NCBI RefSeq assembly: GCF_009600605.1
Contig: NZ_VWNA01000001.1
Location: 620,001 to 684,000 of the forward strand
From: Segnochrobactrum spirostomi
Lineage (GTDB): Bacteria > Pseudomonadota > Alphaproteobacteria > Rhizobiales > Segnochrobactraceae
DNA length: 64,000 bases
Direction of reading: 5' to 3'
The notes beneath the pieces were generated by a model. That model was given only the letters and a program-made list of their open reading frames with translations. It did no database searches and was not told the DNA's origin. This document shows positions 17,047-37,709 of this stretch, one piece after another (positions within the stretch are counted from its first letter, which is position 1; every line of letters begins with the position of its first letter). The translations under genes were made by a program, and so were the position numbers.

Positions 17047-18033
17047 ATGAGCGAGGCGGGTCGGACGCAACGGGACGAGATCACGTCCACCGTCGAGAGC
17101 CCCGACGAGGCCGCCGAACATGCCGGCCTCAACCCCGCCCTTGCCGCCGCCTTCTCCGCGATCGACGACGCCCGCGCCGAATTGCTCGGCTACACCGCGA
17201 AGGCACAGGAAGACCCGTCGCAGCCGCGCCACGCGCGCGACGACGCCGCGCTGGTGGGTGGGCGCGGCCTCGCCACCGCGGTTGCCGCGCTCGCGGAGGC
17301 GCTCGAAGACGATCTGGCGACACTGACCCGCTTCCGCGCCACCGTCCTCACCGACGTCCTGCATCACCTCGAAGACGTGCGTCCGGGCGATGCCCGCCCG
17401 CTCGGCGAGCGAATGCGGCTCGAGATCGATGCCGCGCTCGCCGCCCACGGCCGCGTGGGCACCCTCCTCGCGCGGGAGCGTGCCCGTATCGCCGAACTGT
17501 TCCCCCGTGCTGCCGACGAATTGCCCGGGCGCGACGCCTTCGAACGGGCACTCGCCGCCGGCATCGCCCATGCTCACGCGGAGGGCCGCCGCCTCTCGGT
17601 GCTGATCGTGTCGCTCGACCGGATGGGCCTCCTCACCGCGGAATATGGACCGGAGGTCGGCGTCGAGATCCGCACCGCGGCGGGCCGCGCCATCGAGGCG
17701 TGCTTCCACGAATTCGGTCTCTCCTATCTCCATGGCGGCGACACCTTCGCGGTAATCCTGCCGGACATGCCACTGCGCCAGGCGGTGGCGGTCGCCGAGA
17801 ACCTGCGCCGCACCGTGTCGGCGAAGACCTTGATCCGCCGCTCGTCGGCGACCCCGCTCGGCCGCCTGTCGCTCTCGATCGGCGCCGCGGCGCTCGGGGA
17901 AACGGACGAATCCGCCGCTCTGCTCGCCCGTGCCGCCCGCTGCCTGGGCGATGCCCAATGGTGCGGCGGCAACCGGGTCGTCTGCGAGACCGACCCCGAA
18001 CCGAGCGTGACCAAGCGCTACGCCGTCGGCTGA
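17047..18033 (+). CDS. Degenerate GGDEF-domain protein
   Basis: 328 residues. The first ~155 are an Ala/Arg/Glu-rich helical region without a recognised sensor domain. Residues ~158-310 match a GGDEF domain, from 'LPGRDAFERALAAGIAHA' through 'LIVSLDRMG' to the active-site loop, which reads His-Gly-Gly-Asp-Thr-Phe (229-234) instead of GG[DE]EF. The fourth residue of the loop, a metal-coordinating Glu in active cyclases, is Thr. I see no RxxD inhibitory site before it. Diguanylate cyclase activity is therefore unlikely; GTP or c-di-GMP binding or a structural role is possible. It overlaps the convergent TfoX_N gene by 16 bases. Confidence 0.75.
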   Translation: MSEAGRTQRDEITSTVESPDEAAEHAGLNPALAAAFSAIDDARAELLGYTAKAQEDPSQPRHARDDAALVGGRGLATAVAALAEALEDDLATLTRFRATVLTDVLHHLEDVRPGDARPLGERMRLEIDAALAAHGRVGTLLARERARIAELFPRAADELPGRDAFERALAAGIAHAHAEGRRLSVLIVSLDRMGLLTAEYGPEVGVEIRTAAGRAIEACFHEFGLSYLHGGDTFAVILPDMPLRQAVAVAENLRRTVSAKTLIRRSSATPLGRLSLSIGAAALGETDESAALLARAARCLGDAQWCGGNRVVCETDPEPSVTKRYAVG

Positions 18034-18428
18034 CCGGAGCCGGGCGTCGTCTTGGATTTGGGTCGCTTGGCCGGGCCGCGCGGCTTCGGCGGCCCCTTCG
18101 CGGCCTTGGCGGCCTCCGCCCGCAGCGAGGCGCCGCGGGCGCGTTCGATCCAGGGCCGGAGCGCCTCCGCGTCGTCGAACGCCGCCTCCGGGCAGCGCCA
18201 ATAAGGCAGCCGTACCACCCGCCCCTTCGCCTCGTAGACGAATTGGTCGAGCCCCTCGTCCCGGAAGGCGTCCTCCGTGACCGCATCGGCCTTCAGATAG
18301 ACCACCTCGCCGATCTCGAGCGCGACGACGAGGCCGTCGAGATAGATCGCCCGGCCGCCGAACATCCGCTTGAGGCGGACGCGGCCGAATGGGCCGAACA
18401 CTTCGAACAGAAAGTCCTCATCGAGCAT
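18018..18428 (-). CDS. TfoX N-terminal domain protein
   Basis: 136-residue cytoplasmic protein. 'FGRVRLKRMFGGRAIYLDG', 'VYLKADAVTEDAF' and 'YWRCPEAAFDDAEALRPW' are the TfoX_N (Sxy N-terminal) pattern. The last ~30 residues are Lys/Pro/Ala-rich. In gammaproteobacteria Sxy/TfoX activates competence genes with CRP, but stand-alone TfoX_N proteins in alphaproteobacteria have no established role. The ATG at 18428 has GAGGCT upstream; a GTG at 18464 is an alternative start adding 12 residues. The 3' end overlaps the GGDEF gene by 16 bases tail to tail. Confidence 0.8.
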   Translation of the reverse strand: MLDEDFLFEVFGPFGRVRLKRMFGGRAIYLDGLVVALEIGEVVYLKADAVTEDAFRDEGLDQFVYEAKGRVVRLPYWRCPEAAFDDAEALRPWIERARGASLRAEAAKAAKGPPKPRGPAKRPKSKTTPGSGQPTA

Positions 18429-18533
18429 CGGTAGCCTCGCGAGCCTGATGACGCGATCCCGCACGGCGCGGATGGGTCACCGGCACCGCCGATCTTCGAC
18501 CGGCGGCGCCGCAGGCTCAAGAGGCGGCCTCCC

Positions 18534-19598
18534 TTATGCCGCGACCGCCGGCAGCGGACCGACATAGCGCGATTGCGGGCGGATGATGCGCCCACGCGCC
18601 TCCTGCTCGCGGACATGGGCGAGCCAGCCGGCGGTGCGTCCGGCGGCGAACAGCGCGGTGAAGCCGGCCCGCGGCACCCCGAGGGCATCGAGCAGGAGCG
18701 CCGTGTAGAACTCGACATTGGTGTCGAGCCGCCGCCCCGCCTTGCGGCGTTCGAGGGCGGCGAGCGCGGCCGCCTCCACCGCCTCGGCGAGCGTCAGCCG
18801 CGCGCTCCGTCCGCCGAGGCGGGCGAGCGCTGCCTTGAGCACGTCGGCGCGCGGGTCGCGCACCCGGTAGATGCGGTGGCCGAAGCCCATCAGGCGGCGG
18901 CCGGCATCGAGCTCCGCCGCGACCCAGGCGGGGGCGTTCTCCGGCAGGCCGACCGCGTCGAGCATGTCGAGCACCGGTCCGGGCGCGCCACCGTGGAGCG
19001 GTCCTTCCAACGCGCAGAGGCCGGCGATCAACGCCGCCGCCGGCCCGGCCGCGGTCGAGGCGACGACGCGGGCGGCGAAGGTCGAGGCGTTGAGGCCGTG
19101 GTCGAGGATGGTCACCAGATAGGCATCGAGCGCTGCGGCCTCCGCCGCCGCGACCGGCCGGCCGCGGATCATGCGCAGGAGATCGGCAGCGTGGCCGAGG
19201 CTCGGATCGGGCCGCACCGCCTTCCCCGCGATCGCGAACGCCGCCGCGACGCCGGCAGCGGCGAGGAGGCGCACGGCGACGGGAGCCTCCATCGTCGGCA
19301 GCCCGGCGAGGAGGAACCGCATCGCCGGAACCGGCGCCAGGGCACGGGTCGCGGGCACGAGCGGTGCGAGCCGGTCGTAGGCCTCGAGCCGGGCCGCGCC
19401 GAGGGCGCGCGCCAGACCCTCCGCCGGAAGGTCGATCAGGCCGTCCCACAACAGGGCGGTCGCCTGTTCGAACGGCACATGGCCGACCAGGGTCTCGATG
19501 TCGTGGCCGCGCACGACGAGACGGCCGGCCTCGCCGTCGACGTGGCTCAGAACCGTCTCGGCGGCGACGACATCGTCCAATCCAATGGCTGCTGGCAT
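18534..19598 (-). CDS. Citrate synthase family protein with an altered active-site acid
   Basis: 354-residue member of the citrate/2-methylcitrate synthase family, which condenses an acyl-CoA with a 2-oxoacid. The N-terminus shows 'AAETVLSHVDGEAGRL' and 'GHDIETL'. Conserved histidines are at 167 ('DHGLNAST'), 202 ('PLHGG') and 241 ('MGFGHR'). The catalytic Asp of the usual NVDFYSG is Glu296 here ('TNVEFYTA'), and the Asn after HGGA is Pro. So it is a divergent paralogue, not the housekeeping GltA, and its activity is uncertain. It starts at ATG 19598 and is divergently transcribed from an HTH-fused citrate synthase 109 bases away, which argues for a shared control region and a joint function. 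Confidence 0.85.
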   Translation of the reverse strand: MPAAIGLDDVVAAETVLSHVDGEAGRLVVRGHDIETLVGHVPFEQATALLWDGLIDLPAEGLARALGAARLEAYDRLAPLVPATRALAPVPAMRFLLAGLPTMEAPVAVRLLAAAGVAAAFAIAGKAVRPDPSLGHAADLLRMIRGRPVAAAEAAALDAYLVTILDHGLNASTFAARVVASTAAGPAAALIAGLCALEGPLHGGAPGPVLDMLDAVGLPENAPAWVAAELDAGRRLMGFGHRIYRVRDPRADVLKAALARLGGRSARLTLAEAVEAAALAALERRKAGRRLDTNVEFYTALLLDALGVPRAGFTALFAAGRTAGWLAHVREQEARGRIIRPQSRYVGPLPAVAA

Positions 19599-19640
19599 TT
19601 CAGAGGTCTCCTCAACAACGGGGAGACGATCGATCGAGCT

Positions 19641-19674
19641 TGATTGAGCGTCAATCTTGAATCAATATATCAAT
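19641..19674. promoter_or_regulatory. AT-rich repeat region between the two citrate synthase genes (putative operator)
   Basis: Within the 109-base divergent spacer lies a block much richer in A/T than its surroundings. It has a palindrome ATTGA-GCG-TCAAT (19643-19655) and two further TCAAT copies starting at 19662 and 19670. The block overlaps the expected promoters of both genes. The rightward product carries an N-terminal HTH, so autoregulation through these repeats is a reasonable inference. Confidence 0.5.
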
Positions 19675-19707
19675 ATTCCAGCCATCCTCGAACGGCGCGC
19701 GAGCTTC

Positions 19708-20892
19708 ATGGATCAAGCCCTTTCAGACAAAGACTATATCGACGCGACCGCCGCCTCGGCGAAGCTCGCGGTCAGCCGCGCGACCCTCTACGCCTATGTG
19801 AGCCGTGGCCAGATTCGCACTGCGCCGCACCCGGACGATCCCCGCGGGCGGCTCTATTCCGTCGCCGATATCGAGACCCTGATCCGCCGCAAGACCGAGC
19901 GCAAGCCGCGCATCGCCGCGGCCCGCGCGCTCGATTGGGGCCTGCCGGTGCTGACGACCGGCATCAGCCGCATCGCGGACGGCCGCCTGTTCTACCGCGA
20001 CCGCGACGCCACGCGGCTCGCCGAGCAGGACGATCTCGAAGCCGTCGCCGCCCGACTGTGGGAGAGCGGCGAGACACGCTTCGCGGAGGCGTCCTACGAG
20101 GTCGCGGCGATGACCGGCTGGGTCCTCCCGGCCGAGGCGATCGAGGGCATGAGCGCGACCGAGCGCGCGACCCTCCTCCTCGCCCGCATCGCGCCACTCG
20201 ACACGCCGGGCGGCCGCGACGCGCTGAAGCGCGCCCGGCTCGTGCTCGGCATCGCGGCGGCGGCGGTCGAGGGACGTCTCAAGCCGGGCGTCCCGCTCCA
20301 CGAGGGGTTGGCGCTCGCCTGGGGCCGGCCCGACGCCGCCGACGCGATCCGCCGCGCCCTGGTGCTCTGCGCCGACCACGAGCTCAACGCCTCGACCTTC
20401 GCGGTCCGCGTCACAGCCTCGACGGGCGCCTCGCTCACGGCCTGCCTGATCGCGGGGCTCCAGGCCCTGAGCGGGCCGCGCCACGGCGGCATGACGGCGC
20501 GCGTCACCGCCTTGTTCGACGAAATGATCGGGGTCGGCGATGGCGTCGTCGCCGTGCGGGAGCGCCTCAGGCGCGGCGATCCCCTGCCGGGCTTCGGCCA
20601 CCCGCTCTATCCCGATGGCGATCCCCGGGCGACGGCACTCCTCGCCGCCTATCCGCCGCCGCCGATCCTCGCCAACGGGATCGCGGAAGGCGCCGCCGCG
20701 ACGCATTTGAAGCCGACGCTCGACGTCGCGCTCGCCACGATCGAGCGGCTCTACGGGCTGCCCCGCGGCAGCGGCCTCGCGCTGTTCGCGATCGGCCGCA
20801 GCGTCGGCTGGATCGCCCACGCGACCGAACAGCAGGCGAGCGGCCTCCTGATCCGCCCGCGCGCCGATCATCCCGATCCGGCGGCGTTGTGA
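19708..20892 (+). CDS. Citrate synthase family protein with N-terminal MerR-like helix-turn-helix
   Basis: 394 residues from the ATG at 19708 (a TTG at 19657 would add 17). Residues ~9-62 form an excisionase/MerR-like HTH ('YIDATAASAKLAVSRATLYA', then 'GRLYSVADIETLIRR'). The rest is a citrate synthase fold: 'GISRIADGRLFYRDRD', His224 ('DHELNAST'), His259 ('PRHGG'), His298 ('PGFGHP') and Asp339 ('TLDVALA') keep the catalytic histidines and aspartate, and 'GRSVGWIAHATEQ' is the C-terminal signature. It may be an enzyme that also binds DNA, or a regulator sensing acyl-CoA or oxaloacetate. Its divergent partner lacks the catalytic Asp, so the two could form a hetero-oligomer. Genes of this build are known in rhizobia but I know of no defined role. 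Confidence 0.88.
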   Translation: MDQALSDKDYIDATAASAKLAVSRATLYAYVSRGQIRTAPHPDDPRGRLYSVADIETLIRRKTERKPRIAAARALDWGLPVLTTGISRIADGRLFYRDRDATRLAEQDDLEAVAARLWESGETRFAEASYEVAAMTGWVLPAEAIEGMSATERATLLLARIAPLDTPGGRDALKRARLVLGIAAAAVEGRLKPGVPLHEGLALAWGRPDAADAIRRALVLCADHELNASTFAVRVTASTGASLTACLIAGLQALSGPRHGGMTARVTALFDEMIGVGDGVVAVRERLRRGDPLPGFGHPLYPDGDPRATALLAAYPPPPILANGIAEGAAATHLKPTLDVALATIERLYGLPRGSGLALFAIGRSVGWIAHATEQQASGLLIRPRADHPDPAAL

Positions 20893-36260: not shown

Positions 36261-36689
36261 TCAACCCTCGGACGGCTGCCAGGGGTCGATAGTCGGAACA
36301 CCCATCGGTGCGAAGTCCGCCACGTTGCGGGTGACGACACTCATGCCATGCACGAGCGCCGTGGCGCCGATGAAGGCGTCGCGCTCCGGCCGTCGATCGT
36401 GCACGTGCAATCGCGAACAGCGCAGCGCGACGATCTCGTCGACCGGCAGGACGCGACCCGAGAACTCGGAGAGCACGAGCTTGTCCATCCACGCGCGCAA
36501 GTGCGCGCCTTGGACCGGATCGCGACGCTCGATCATCAGGACACCGAGATCGAGCTCCATGAGGGTCACGGCGGAGATGTAGAAACTCTCGGCGCTGCGG
36601 CTCCCGATCCAAGAGACGACGTTCTTGTCCGCTCGGCCCGCCTTGGCTTGGCGCAACTCCGACACGACGTTCGTGTCGAGGAGGTACAT
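36261..36689 (-). CDS. vapC: PIN-domain toxin (VapC/FitB type)
   Basis: 142-residue PIN ribonuclease. Metal ligands are at Asp5 ('YLLDTNVVSELR'), Glu45 ('VTLMELDLGV'), Asp104 ('PERDAFIGATAL') and the Asn122/Asp125 region ('VVTRNVADF'). The opening 'LLDTNVVSELR' is typical of FitB-like toxins. It is unrelated in sequence detail to the VapC at 2960. Its ATG overlaps the antitoxin stop (TGATG), giving translational coupling. Confidence 0.9.
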   Translation of the reverse strand: MYLLDTNVVSELRQAKAGRADKNVVSWIGSRSAESFYISAVTLMELDLGVLMIERRDPVQGAHLRAWMDKLVLSEFSGRVLPVDEIVALRCSRLHVHDRRPERDAFIGATALVHGMSVVTRNVADFAPMGVPTIDPWQPSEG

Positions 36690-36943
36690 CAGGAAAAGTC
36701 CGCCGGGCGCGGCAACTCCCGCGAGGGCGAGATTTCGAGCTCGATGTCTTCGAGCCCCGGCATCGACAAAGCCTCGACGAGGCTCCGCCGCGTTCCTTTG
36801 AGCCGCAGATAGTCCTCATAGCTCAGGAGCACATGAGCGGGCTTGCCCCGGTTCGTGATGAACACGGGACCCGACTGGGTCGCCTTCTGCGCCTGATTGG
36901 CGTTCTGCTGAAACGCCCGGCTGGATAAGGTCGTGATCGTCAT
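36689..36943 (-). CDS. Phd/YefM family antitoxin
   Basis: 84 residues from the ATG at 36943. 'TTLSSRAFQQNANQAQKAT', 'GPVFITNRGKPAHVLLSYED' and 'YLRLKG' are the Phd/YefM DNA-binding fold; the acidic C-terminus 'GLEDIELEISPSRELPRP' is the toxin-neutralising part. Phd-type antitoxins pair with either Doc, YoeB or PIN toxins; here the partner is a PIN toxin, a common combination. The 61-base spacer to the divergent sfsA holds the promoter and a TTGATACATTAGAACAA stretch that may be the operator. Confidence 0.9.
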   Translation of the reverse strand: MTITTLSSRAFQQNANQAQKATQSGPVFITNRGKPAHVLLSYEDYLRLKGTRRSLVEALSMPGLEDIELEISPSRELPRPADFS

Positions 36944-37004
36944 GGTGGGCCTCCAAGGCACGCCGCCAATGTTGATACATTAGAACAAAGCGTCGATTTT
37001 CTCA

Positions 37005-37709
37005 ATGCAGCCTGCCCGCTCTCCCCTGATCGAGGTCCGCCTCCTGCGGCGCTACAAGCGCTTTCTCGCCGACGTGGAATTCGCCGACGGCCGGATCGAG
37101 ACGGTGCATTGCCCCAACCCCGGTGCGATGCTGGGGCTCGACGCGCCGGGCTCGCGCGCCTTCGTCTCGCGGTCGGCGAACCTCGCCCGCAAGCTGCCGC
37201 TGACCCTCGAAATCGTCGAGGCGGACGGTGTCCTCGTCGGGCTCAACACGGGCTTGCCGAACGCGCTTGCCGCCGAGGTGATCGCCGCGGGCCGCATCCC
37301 CGAACTCGCCGGCTATTCCACGATCCGTCGCGAGGTGCGCTACGGCCGCGACAGCCGCATCGATCTCCTGCTCGAGGCGGAGGATCGCCCCTCGGCCTAT
37401 GTCGAGATCAAGAACGTCCACCTGCGCCGTCGCGAGGGGCTCGCCGAATTTCCCGACAGCCGCACCGCGCGGGGCACCAAGCATCTCGCCGAACTCGCCG
37501 AGATGGTCGCCCTCGGCCACCGGGCGGTGATGCTCTACGTGATCCAGCGGGAGGATTGCGACCGCTTCGCCCTCGCCGCCGACATCGACCCCGTCTATGC
37601 GGCCGCCTTCGCCGCCGCACGGTCCGGCGGCGTGGAAGCCTTCGCCTATCGCTGCACGGTGACGCCCGAGGCGATCGCGGTGACTACGCGCGTGCCGATC
37701 GTCGGCTGA
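37005..37709 (+). CDS. sfsA: Sugar fermentation stimulation protein SfsA
   Basis: 234-residue protein with an N-terminal OB-like part and a nuclease-like core. '[17 protein letters not shown]', '[11 protein letters not shown]', 'YVEIKNVHL', '[16 protein letters not shown]' are SfsA signatures. E. coli SfsA was found by its effect on maltose metabolism and binds DNA; the molecular role is unsettled. The sfsA-map-radC order is typical of Hyphomicrobiales. Confidence 0.95.

Follow-up and report, generated by a model that had tools for sequence, protein, structure and literature searches.

Does a citrate synthase that carries a DNA-binding-type head act as an enzyme, as a regulator of the gene that it faces, or as both? 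The question is raised by a divergent gene pair in the window, the 64 kb stretch of Segnochrobactrum spirostomi DNA analysed here. A preliminary description of this DNA had reported two open reading frames: a 394-residue protein in which a helix-turn-helix (HTH) precedes a citrate synthase domain, here called HTH-CS, and a 354-residue paralogue with Glu296, here called CitA. Both were confirmed at the positions listed in Table 1. The pair sits between tfoX-like and queA genes. An empty site for insertion of the pair was sought in two family relatives that lack it; in these genomes the tfoX-like and queA genes are on different contigs and neither site could be read.

The genome of the window contains three PF00285 genes: besides HTH-CS and CitA, there is a GltA-like one at C1:1131015. 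This third gene has the highest PF00285 score in the genome (467.5 bits) and, for this reason, the housekeeping role is unlikely to fall to either HTH-CS or CitA. HTH-CS and CitA are approximately 41% identical over the C-terminal half.

Table 1. Positions of the features of the divergent pair within the window.
Feature	Position	Strand	Evidence or remark
HTH-citrate-synthase fusion (HTH-CS), 394 aa	19708..20892	+	ORF, domain profiles, alignment and structure model; proposed divergon regulator
Winged HTH domain of HTH-CS, residues 9–62	19732..19893	+	Profiles, alignment, model
Citrate synthase domain of HTH-CS, residues 77–385	19936..20862	+	With His224, His259, His298, Arg307, Asp339, Arg364, Arg383
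Divergent partner, CitA-type citrate synthase, 354 aa	18534..19598	-	ORF, Citrate_synt and NF009005
Codon of CitA Glu296	18711..18713	-	Sequence; Glu in 36/36 aligned CitA partners
Conserved putative operator CGTCAATCTTGAATCAATATATCAA in the shared spacer, 25 bp	19649..19673	+	Matrix and pattern scans
Candidate -35 element TTGACG of the CitA gene, inside the operator	19649..19654	- (bottom strand)	Inference from a family-wide tendency

Domains and active sites of the two proteins

The Citrate_synt profile matches HTH-CS with 184.3 bits over residues 77–385 (Pfam PF00285, gathering cut-off 27), and the CitA subfamily profile NF009005 of NCBIfam gives 135.9 bits, under its curated cut-off of 332. 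His224, His259, His298 and Asp339, named in the preliminary description, are present and conserved in the family alignment. Together with Arg307, Arg364 and Arg383 they are matched by identical residues in the alignment with the genome's own GltA, and we take these seven positions to be the set of catalytic His/His/Asp and oxaloacetate-binding Arg residues. Across 81 proteins (the window and 80 homologues), His224, His259, His298, Arg307, Asp339, Arg364 and Arg383 are identical in 81, 81, 79, 81, 80, 81 and 81, respectively. Two features set HTH-CS apart from both CitA and GltA. The sequence at His298 reads GFGHPLY or GFGHHLY instead of GFGHRVY or GFGHRIY, and the segment from Arg307 to Asp339 is shorter.

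An AlphaFold2 model of HTH-CS calculated from 50 sequences has a mean pLDDT of 88.3. The HTH is confident, the synthase fold is mostly confident and the linker near residues 64–80 is of low confidence. The best structural match of the model is Pseudomonas aeruginosa PrpC (VIA Z 34.6, rmsd 3.1, 321 aligned). The 50 structural matches listed range from Z 30.1 to 34.6 and carry the titles of citrate or methylcitrate synthases, except for one entry that is titled for an F-box complex.

The preliminary description had placed a MerR/excisionase-like HTH at residues 9–62. For the window's protein by itself, HTH_17 reaches 22.1 bits over residues 14–62, which is under Pfam's cut-off of 27. At E ≤ 0.001, HTH_17 matches all 50 family members (best 2e-12) and MerR matches 41 of the 50. 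AlphaFold2 predicts a winged HTH at about residues 9–63, with a mean pLDDT of 88–96 per ten-residue block from 11 to 60. The HTH_17 matches and the model together bear out the assignment. When the HTH was modelled alone, its best structural match was the Pukovnik excisionase Xis (PDB: 4j2n, Z 8.2, rmsd 2.2, 54 aligned). BldC bound to DNA (PDB: 6ama, Z 7.2, rmsd 2.6, 56 aligned) and SoxR bound to DNA (PDB: 2zhg, Z 6.7, rmsd 2.3, 58 aligned) were also matched, at values of Z under 8 that by themselves may reflect a common arrangement and nothing further. A profile of the HTH alone found no PDB sequence at E ≤ 0.01, a result that says nothing on the fold. Among the family-profile matches in the PDB, the 60 of 84 that were listed all start at position 72 or later, so that none of these covers the HTH.

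The turn and recognition segment form the best-conserved part of the HTH. Residues T26–G34 read TLYxYVSRG in 81/81 proteins (the window and its 80 homologues), and among the 48 proteins in a sample of the window's class whose HTH is visible, 34 keep this motif. The remaining 14 deviate at one of three positions (Y30N in 4, G34D/N in 5 and T26S in 5), and L27, Y28, V31, S32 and R33 are invariant in both sets (81/81 and 48/48). All 14 deviants carry the operator described below, at 28.9–47.9 bits, and therefore, as judged from these sequences, the recognition segment and the operator do not strictly covary. The HTH of two proteins, L175 and L213, shows as gaps in the alignment; a motif search recovers that of L175 and not that of L213.

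The divergent partner is a CitA-type synthase, with 297.4 bits to Citrate_synt (PF00285, cut-off 27) and 401 bits to the citrate synthase profile NF009005, over the curated cut-off of 332. Glu296 was confirmed in place of the catalytic Asp, a substitution for which the preliminary description had called the paralogue altered. At this position Glu is found in 36/36 aligned CitA partners, and Asp in 11/11 GltA and other synthases and in 68/71 HTH-CS proteins. The motif TNVEF is common to CitA of the window, Bacillus subtilis CitA (PDB: 2c6x) and Mycobacterium tuberculosis CitA (PDB: 8gll, 8gmf). B. subtilis CitA is enzymatically active. Overexpression of M. tuberculosis citA (Rv0889c) is reported to have raised the flux of acetate to CO2, which fits an active enzyme (PMC3101192). 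With Glu in all 36 partners and in the CitA proteins of both species, a broken or switched enzyme can be set aside and, by sequence comparison, Glu296 is a mark of the CitA clade and no lesion.

A conserved putative operator in the shared spacer

A block shared upstream of the 80 HTH-CS homologues, of which the preliminary description makes no mention, yielded a 25-bp matrix with the consensus CGTCAATATTGATTAATATAATCAA, in which the half-sites TCAAT, ATTGAT and ATCAA may be discerned. Positions 6, 9, 10 and 11 are identical in 81/81 sites, and the operator is kept beside HTH-CS genes whose proteins are 43–50% identical. For scanning, a matrix was trained on the CoA-transferase-facing sites alone (61 loci, 34 distinct sites) with the window excluded. 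The operator of the window scored 33.5 bits and ranked first in the 64 kb over both strands, with a runner-up of 20.4 bits. The maximum in ten Markov-simulated windows was 21.2 bits, reached in one of the ten. The runner-up, at 36964 between a Phd/PIN toxin-antitoxin pair and sfsA, was taken as chance because one simulated window in ten reached 21.2 bits.

Upstream of HTH-CS, a site of more than 20 bits is present at 76 of the 80 homologous loci. By partner, the counts are 62/62 for CoA-transferase (a figure that includes the 61 training loci), 8/8 for CitA, 2/2 for M20 peptidase and 4/8 for others; one exception has no site (L050) and three are under 20 bits (L026, L028 and L063). Six relatives from the order of the window, all outside the training set, have the operator in 6/6. 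These six and 46 more loci, taken from 387 genomes sampled evenly from the class, make up a set of 52 class loci, likewise outside the training set, of which 47 have a spacer site over 20 bits and none has one elsewhere in the locus. The five without a site are L195, L215 and L216, together with L210 (at a contig end) and L217 (a match without the HTH part), which are uninformative on the operator. At eight plasmid loci (from 40 matches listed and 79 records in total), the best site lies in each case just upstream of the HTH-coding match, at 18.6 to 47.8 bits.

The main exceptions to the operator rule are therefore L195, L215 and L216. All three lack the operator and keep TLYAYVSRG. L195 faces a cation-efflux gene. 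In L215 and L216 the catalytic residues are gone and, on the evidence of the alignment, the HTH outlives catalysis in these two proteins.

A strict operator pattern was searched in 60 genomes of the window's class, 30 with and 30 without HTH-CS. Exact sites number 22, none of them more than 70 bases from an HTH-CS match; they occur in 22/30 genomes with HTH-CS and in 0/30 genomes without it. In the other eight HTH-CS genomes, including that of the window, the strict pattern is not matched exactly, and sites with one mismatch were found also away from HTH-CS and in genomes that lack it. As a spacing control, a pattern with the spacer one base shorter was run over these 60 genomes; its one exact match falls in a genome that lacks HTH-CS. 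With a looser pattern, the operator is the sole exact match in the genome of the window and three other sites have three mismatches, a result that does not support a larger regulon there.

Promoter geometry was considered at 66 distinct loci with a CitA or CoA-transferase partner. A bottom-strand TTGAC lies in the left half of the operator at 53 of these. A -10-like hexamer (four or more matches, with A2 and T6) is found 15–19 bp from this TTGAC at 20/66 loci, compared to 2, 1 and 0 at 9–13, 21–25 and 26–30 bp. In a looser count of four or more matches at single spacings, the values are 12/66 at 17, 8/66 at 14 and 7/66 at 21. On the top strand, TANNNT occurs within the operator at 41 of the 66 loci. 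A generic scan of the window's spacer found no sigma-70-type promoter, and the geometry given here rests on the family statistics. From the spacing of TTGAC relative to the -10-like hexamers and from TANNNT inside the operator, it follows that protein binding here would probably mask both promoters.

Partner exchange, distribution and descent

Relatives of HTH-CS are encoded in 414 genome stretches, of which 80 were kept and checked for the HTH. The preliminary description had placed such fusions in rhizobia; this does not hold as a limit, since named alpha- and betaproteobacteria carry HTH-CS, and in many of both classes the operator accompanies the gene. Divergent neighbours at the 80 loci are type-III CoA-transferases (62), CitA (8) and M20 peptidases (2), with another gene or none at the remaining 8 (partner identity by Pfam: four CoA-transferases and one peptidase). 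The 52 class loci comprise 39 with CitA, one of them doubtful (L204, a 32% match), 2 with CoA-transferase and 11 with another gene or none, among the last a DUF2332 gene (L192). By annotation, HTH-CS faces a citrate synthase on plasmids of Agrobacterium fabrum C58, A. vitis and two Chelatococcus, a CoA-transferase on plasmids of Azospirillum and Comamonas, a DUF2332 gene on a Pseudoroseomonas plasmid and an MFS transporter on a Caballeronia plasmid.

When the partner label was placed on trees, 13–14 changes were counted, a number inflated by treating 'other' and 'none/other' as separate labels; CoA-transferase against the rest gives 6. This variation of the partner beside a persistent operator would be expected if HTH-CS were a regulator able to exchange its targets, and not if it were an enzyme tied to one fixed pathway.

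The active-site set is intact in 110/111 HTH-CS proteins that face CitA or CoA-transferase, compared to 12/19 with other partners (L210, L214 and L217 excluded). Over five phylogenetically independent pairs, the association of an intact site with acyl-CoA partners had a mean of 1.7 for and 0.0 against and was not significant. Once relatedness is allowed for, the link to partner type is retained as a hint in the sequences, without significance.

HTH-CS was found in 49/387 genomes (E ≤ 1e-30), a count that includes one match without the HTH part (G336) and two at contig ends (G187 and G208), and CitA in 36/387 (E ≤ 1e-70). Of the CitA genomes, 35/36 also carry HTH-CS (Fisher p 3e-37, relatedness not removed), and the single CitA without HTH-CS (G314) is the weakest CitA match at 42%. 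Over 34 pairs, the distances of HTH-CS and CitA correlate with a Mantel r of 0.65, a value that 0 of 2000 permutations attained, but the two proteins share the same nearest neighbour in only 15/34 pairs. The sequences thus fit a largely joint inheritance with exceptions.

A quick tree was built from 34 of the 80 homologues and 36 of the 52 class proteins after thinning at 72% identity, with L210, L214 and L217 left out. HTH-CS and CitA each form one side of a branch and stand together against GltA (support 90, 99 and 93); the tree holds one very long fragment, L139. As HTH-CS and CitA are joined against GltA, the tree fits a putative regulator that arose when its own target, or an ancestor shared by the two, was duplicated.

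Proposed function and relation to known systems

We consider it quite probable that HTH-CS is a local autoregulator derived from a citrate synthase, one that would bind the 25-bp operator, repress both genes and sense a ligand of the synthase. In the proposed mechanism, the regulator descends from a citrate synthase and its N-terminal MerR/excisionase-type winged HTH would bind the operator between its own gene and the divergent one. Since the operator appears to overlap two likely promoter elements, the partner's -35 (TTGAC) and the -10 of the regulator gene, binding would most likely repress both genes. A synthase-type dimer or larger assembly would set several HTHs on the three half-sites and so block the two promoters. 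The complete synthase site may sense a substrate or product, such as oxaloacetate or another 2-oxoacid, an acyl-CoA or citrate; an acyl-CoA or oxoacid is a plausible ligand because the active site is conserved. Citrate synthases are closed by an oxaloacetate-like or acyl-CoA ligand, and closure in HTH-CS would alter the spacing of the HTHs, releasing or tightening their hold on the operator. The expression of an acyl-CoA enzyme, here CitA and elsewhere a type-III CoA-transferase, would thereby be coupled to the ligand pool. The preliminary description had envisaged an enzyme-derived sensor that controls its own spacer. The part concerning the spacer stands, with the operator kept there across changes of partner, and the part concerning the ligand is left as plausible.

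A wider proposal falls a little short of what we would call probable and is put forward tentatively. HTH-CS may represent a widespread family of one-component regulators in which a citrate synthase with intact catalytic machinery is the sensor. It would have been born beside CitA to regulate its sister enzyme and would later have swapped targets (CoA-transferases, DUF2332 and others) with one operator, its site reading the acyl-CoA/oxaloacetate state, possibly by turnover.

Several other readings were weighed. It is possible, if rather doubtful, that HTH-CS is a trigger enzyme, a synthase with full activity (perhaps on an uncommon pair of acyl-CoA and 2-oxoacid) that also binds the operator and whose catalysis or occupancy sets the state. 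The seven active-site residues retained in nearly all members and the complete synthase fold of the model, with its VIA Z of 34.6 to P. aeruginosa PrpC, agree with this; however, the changed loop after His298, the shortened Arg307–Asp339 segment and the HTH of L215 and L216, which lack an active site, do not. Activation of the partner gene in the manner of MerR, in place of repression, is unlikely: the HTH fold is nearest to excisionase, BldC and SoxR-type domains, several of which belong to activators, but the operator overlaps the likely -35 of the partner, with a -10-like hexamer at 15–19 bp in 20/66 loci. Less likely again is a hetero-oligomer in which HTH-CS tethers CitA or is gated by it. 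The two are neighbouring, co-occurring paralogues and citrate synthases are dimers or larger, and yet the same regulator and operator are found with a CoA-transferase, DUF2332 or peptidase gene replacing that of CitA, so that a hetero-oligomer is not needed, and over the C-terminal half the identity of the two window proteins is only about 41%. Finally, local conservation by itself does not name the binder, but it is very improbable that the site serves another, unlinked transcription factor and that HTH-CS is an ordinary isozyme whose HTH is a vestige, given no exact sites in 30 genomes without HTH-CS, none elsewhere in 30 with it, and a turn and recognition segment that are the most conserved part of the HTH.

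The proposed citrate-synthase-derived autoregulator may be compared to known systems. CitA of the window is a member of the CitA-type synthases (NF009005/PRK12350; PDB: 2c6x, 8gll) and shares their catalytic Glu. HTH-CS is sister to these relative to GltA in the quick tree, fragment L139 apart, and differs from them in its added HTH, its retained Asp339, its changed loop after His298 and a score under the subfamily cut-off. The head of HTH-CS shares the fold and profile matches of the MerR/excisionase (Xis)/BldC winged-HTH superfamily and, unlike those proteins, is fused to a citrate synthase domain. MerR regulators proper have a dimerising coiled coil after the HTH and an operator between the -35 and -10 of the target; in HTH-CS the linker at about residues 64–80 is of low confidence and the operator appears to overlap the -35 of the partner.

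The combination of a DNA-binding domain with an enzyme fold is shared with the enzyme-derived regulators MocR/GabR, BirA, PutA and ROK, although in HTH-CS the enzyme fold is that of citrate synthase. GabR and the ROK repressors are regulators derived from enzymes, and MocR/GabR proteins join a GntR HTH to an aminotransferase fold. MocR (PMC6677901) and BirA and PutA (PMC6978683) are reported to be enzyme-derived regulators that act on genes of their own pathways. The open-licence literature searched gave no description or characterised member of an HTH-citrate synthase family, and such reports may exist beyond it. Thus, the kind of regulator is already known; what appears new to us is the use of a citrate synthase fold, together with the operator and the swapping of partners.

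Most of the plasmid records listed with a gene name say 'citrate synthase family protein', and HTH-CS genes may therefore be miscounted as enzymes of the TCA cycle. If the proposal is true, citrate synthase would join the enzyme folds that have been turned into transcription factors, and the CitA and type-III CoA-transferase genes opposite HTH-CS would gain a hint of their function. The 25-bp operator, with its single exact site in the genome of the window, would be ready for building sensors of acyl-CoA or 2-oxoacids. Should the sensor reading also be true, HTH-CS would sense the entry step of the TCA cycle and relay it directly to gene expression.

Domain layout of the CoA-transferase partners

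At some loci in other genomes, the gene divergent from the HTH-citrate-synthase fusion (HTH-CS) encodes a CoA-transferase. Four such partners were scanned. In each, the strongest CoA_transf_3 match falls in the C-terminal half of the protein, covers only positions ~1–210 of 366 and is preceded by ~200 residues. A second stretch was found in two of the four. The layout resembles that of a permuted or rearranged transferase.

Coordinates of partner and window genes
Feature	Locus	Position	Strand
CoA-transferase partner	L013	4463-5923	
CoA-transferase partner	L083	4508-5890	
CoA-transferase partner	L051	4472-5863	
CoA-transferase partner	L082	4508-5905	
Phd/YefM antitoxin and PIN toxin pair	window	36261-36961	-
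sfsA (divergent from the pair)	window	37005-37709	+
GGDEF-domain protein	window	17047-18033	+
TfoX_N-domain protein	window	18018-18464	-

Operator look-alike and neighbouring genes in the window

A weak look-alike of the HTH-CS/CitA spacer operator (36964-36988, 20.4 bits) lies between the toxin-antitoxin pair and sfsA, and is probably either chance or a site of the Phd/YefM antitoxin itself. The GGDEF-domain and TfoX_N-domain genes adjoin each other on the side of the CitA gene that faces away from HTH-CS.

Operator state at other HTH-CS loci

Three Paraburkholderia/Burkholderia HTH-CS genes have no recognised divergent partner; the operator is missing at L050 and its right half is altered at L060 and L063, as if it had decayed after target loss. 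Among HTH-CS relatives of family f104 in the genome search, His298 is substituted in L195, which faces a cation-efflux gene, and several catalytic residues are gone from L215 and L216. None of these three loci carries the standard operator, and the proteins look as if they had been retargeted.
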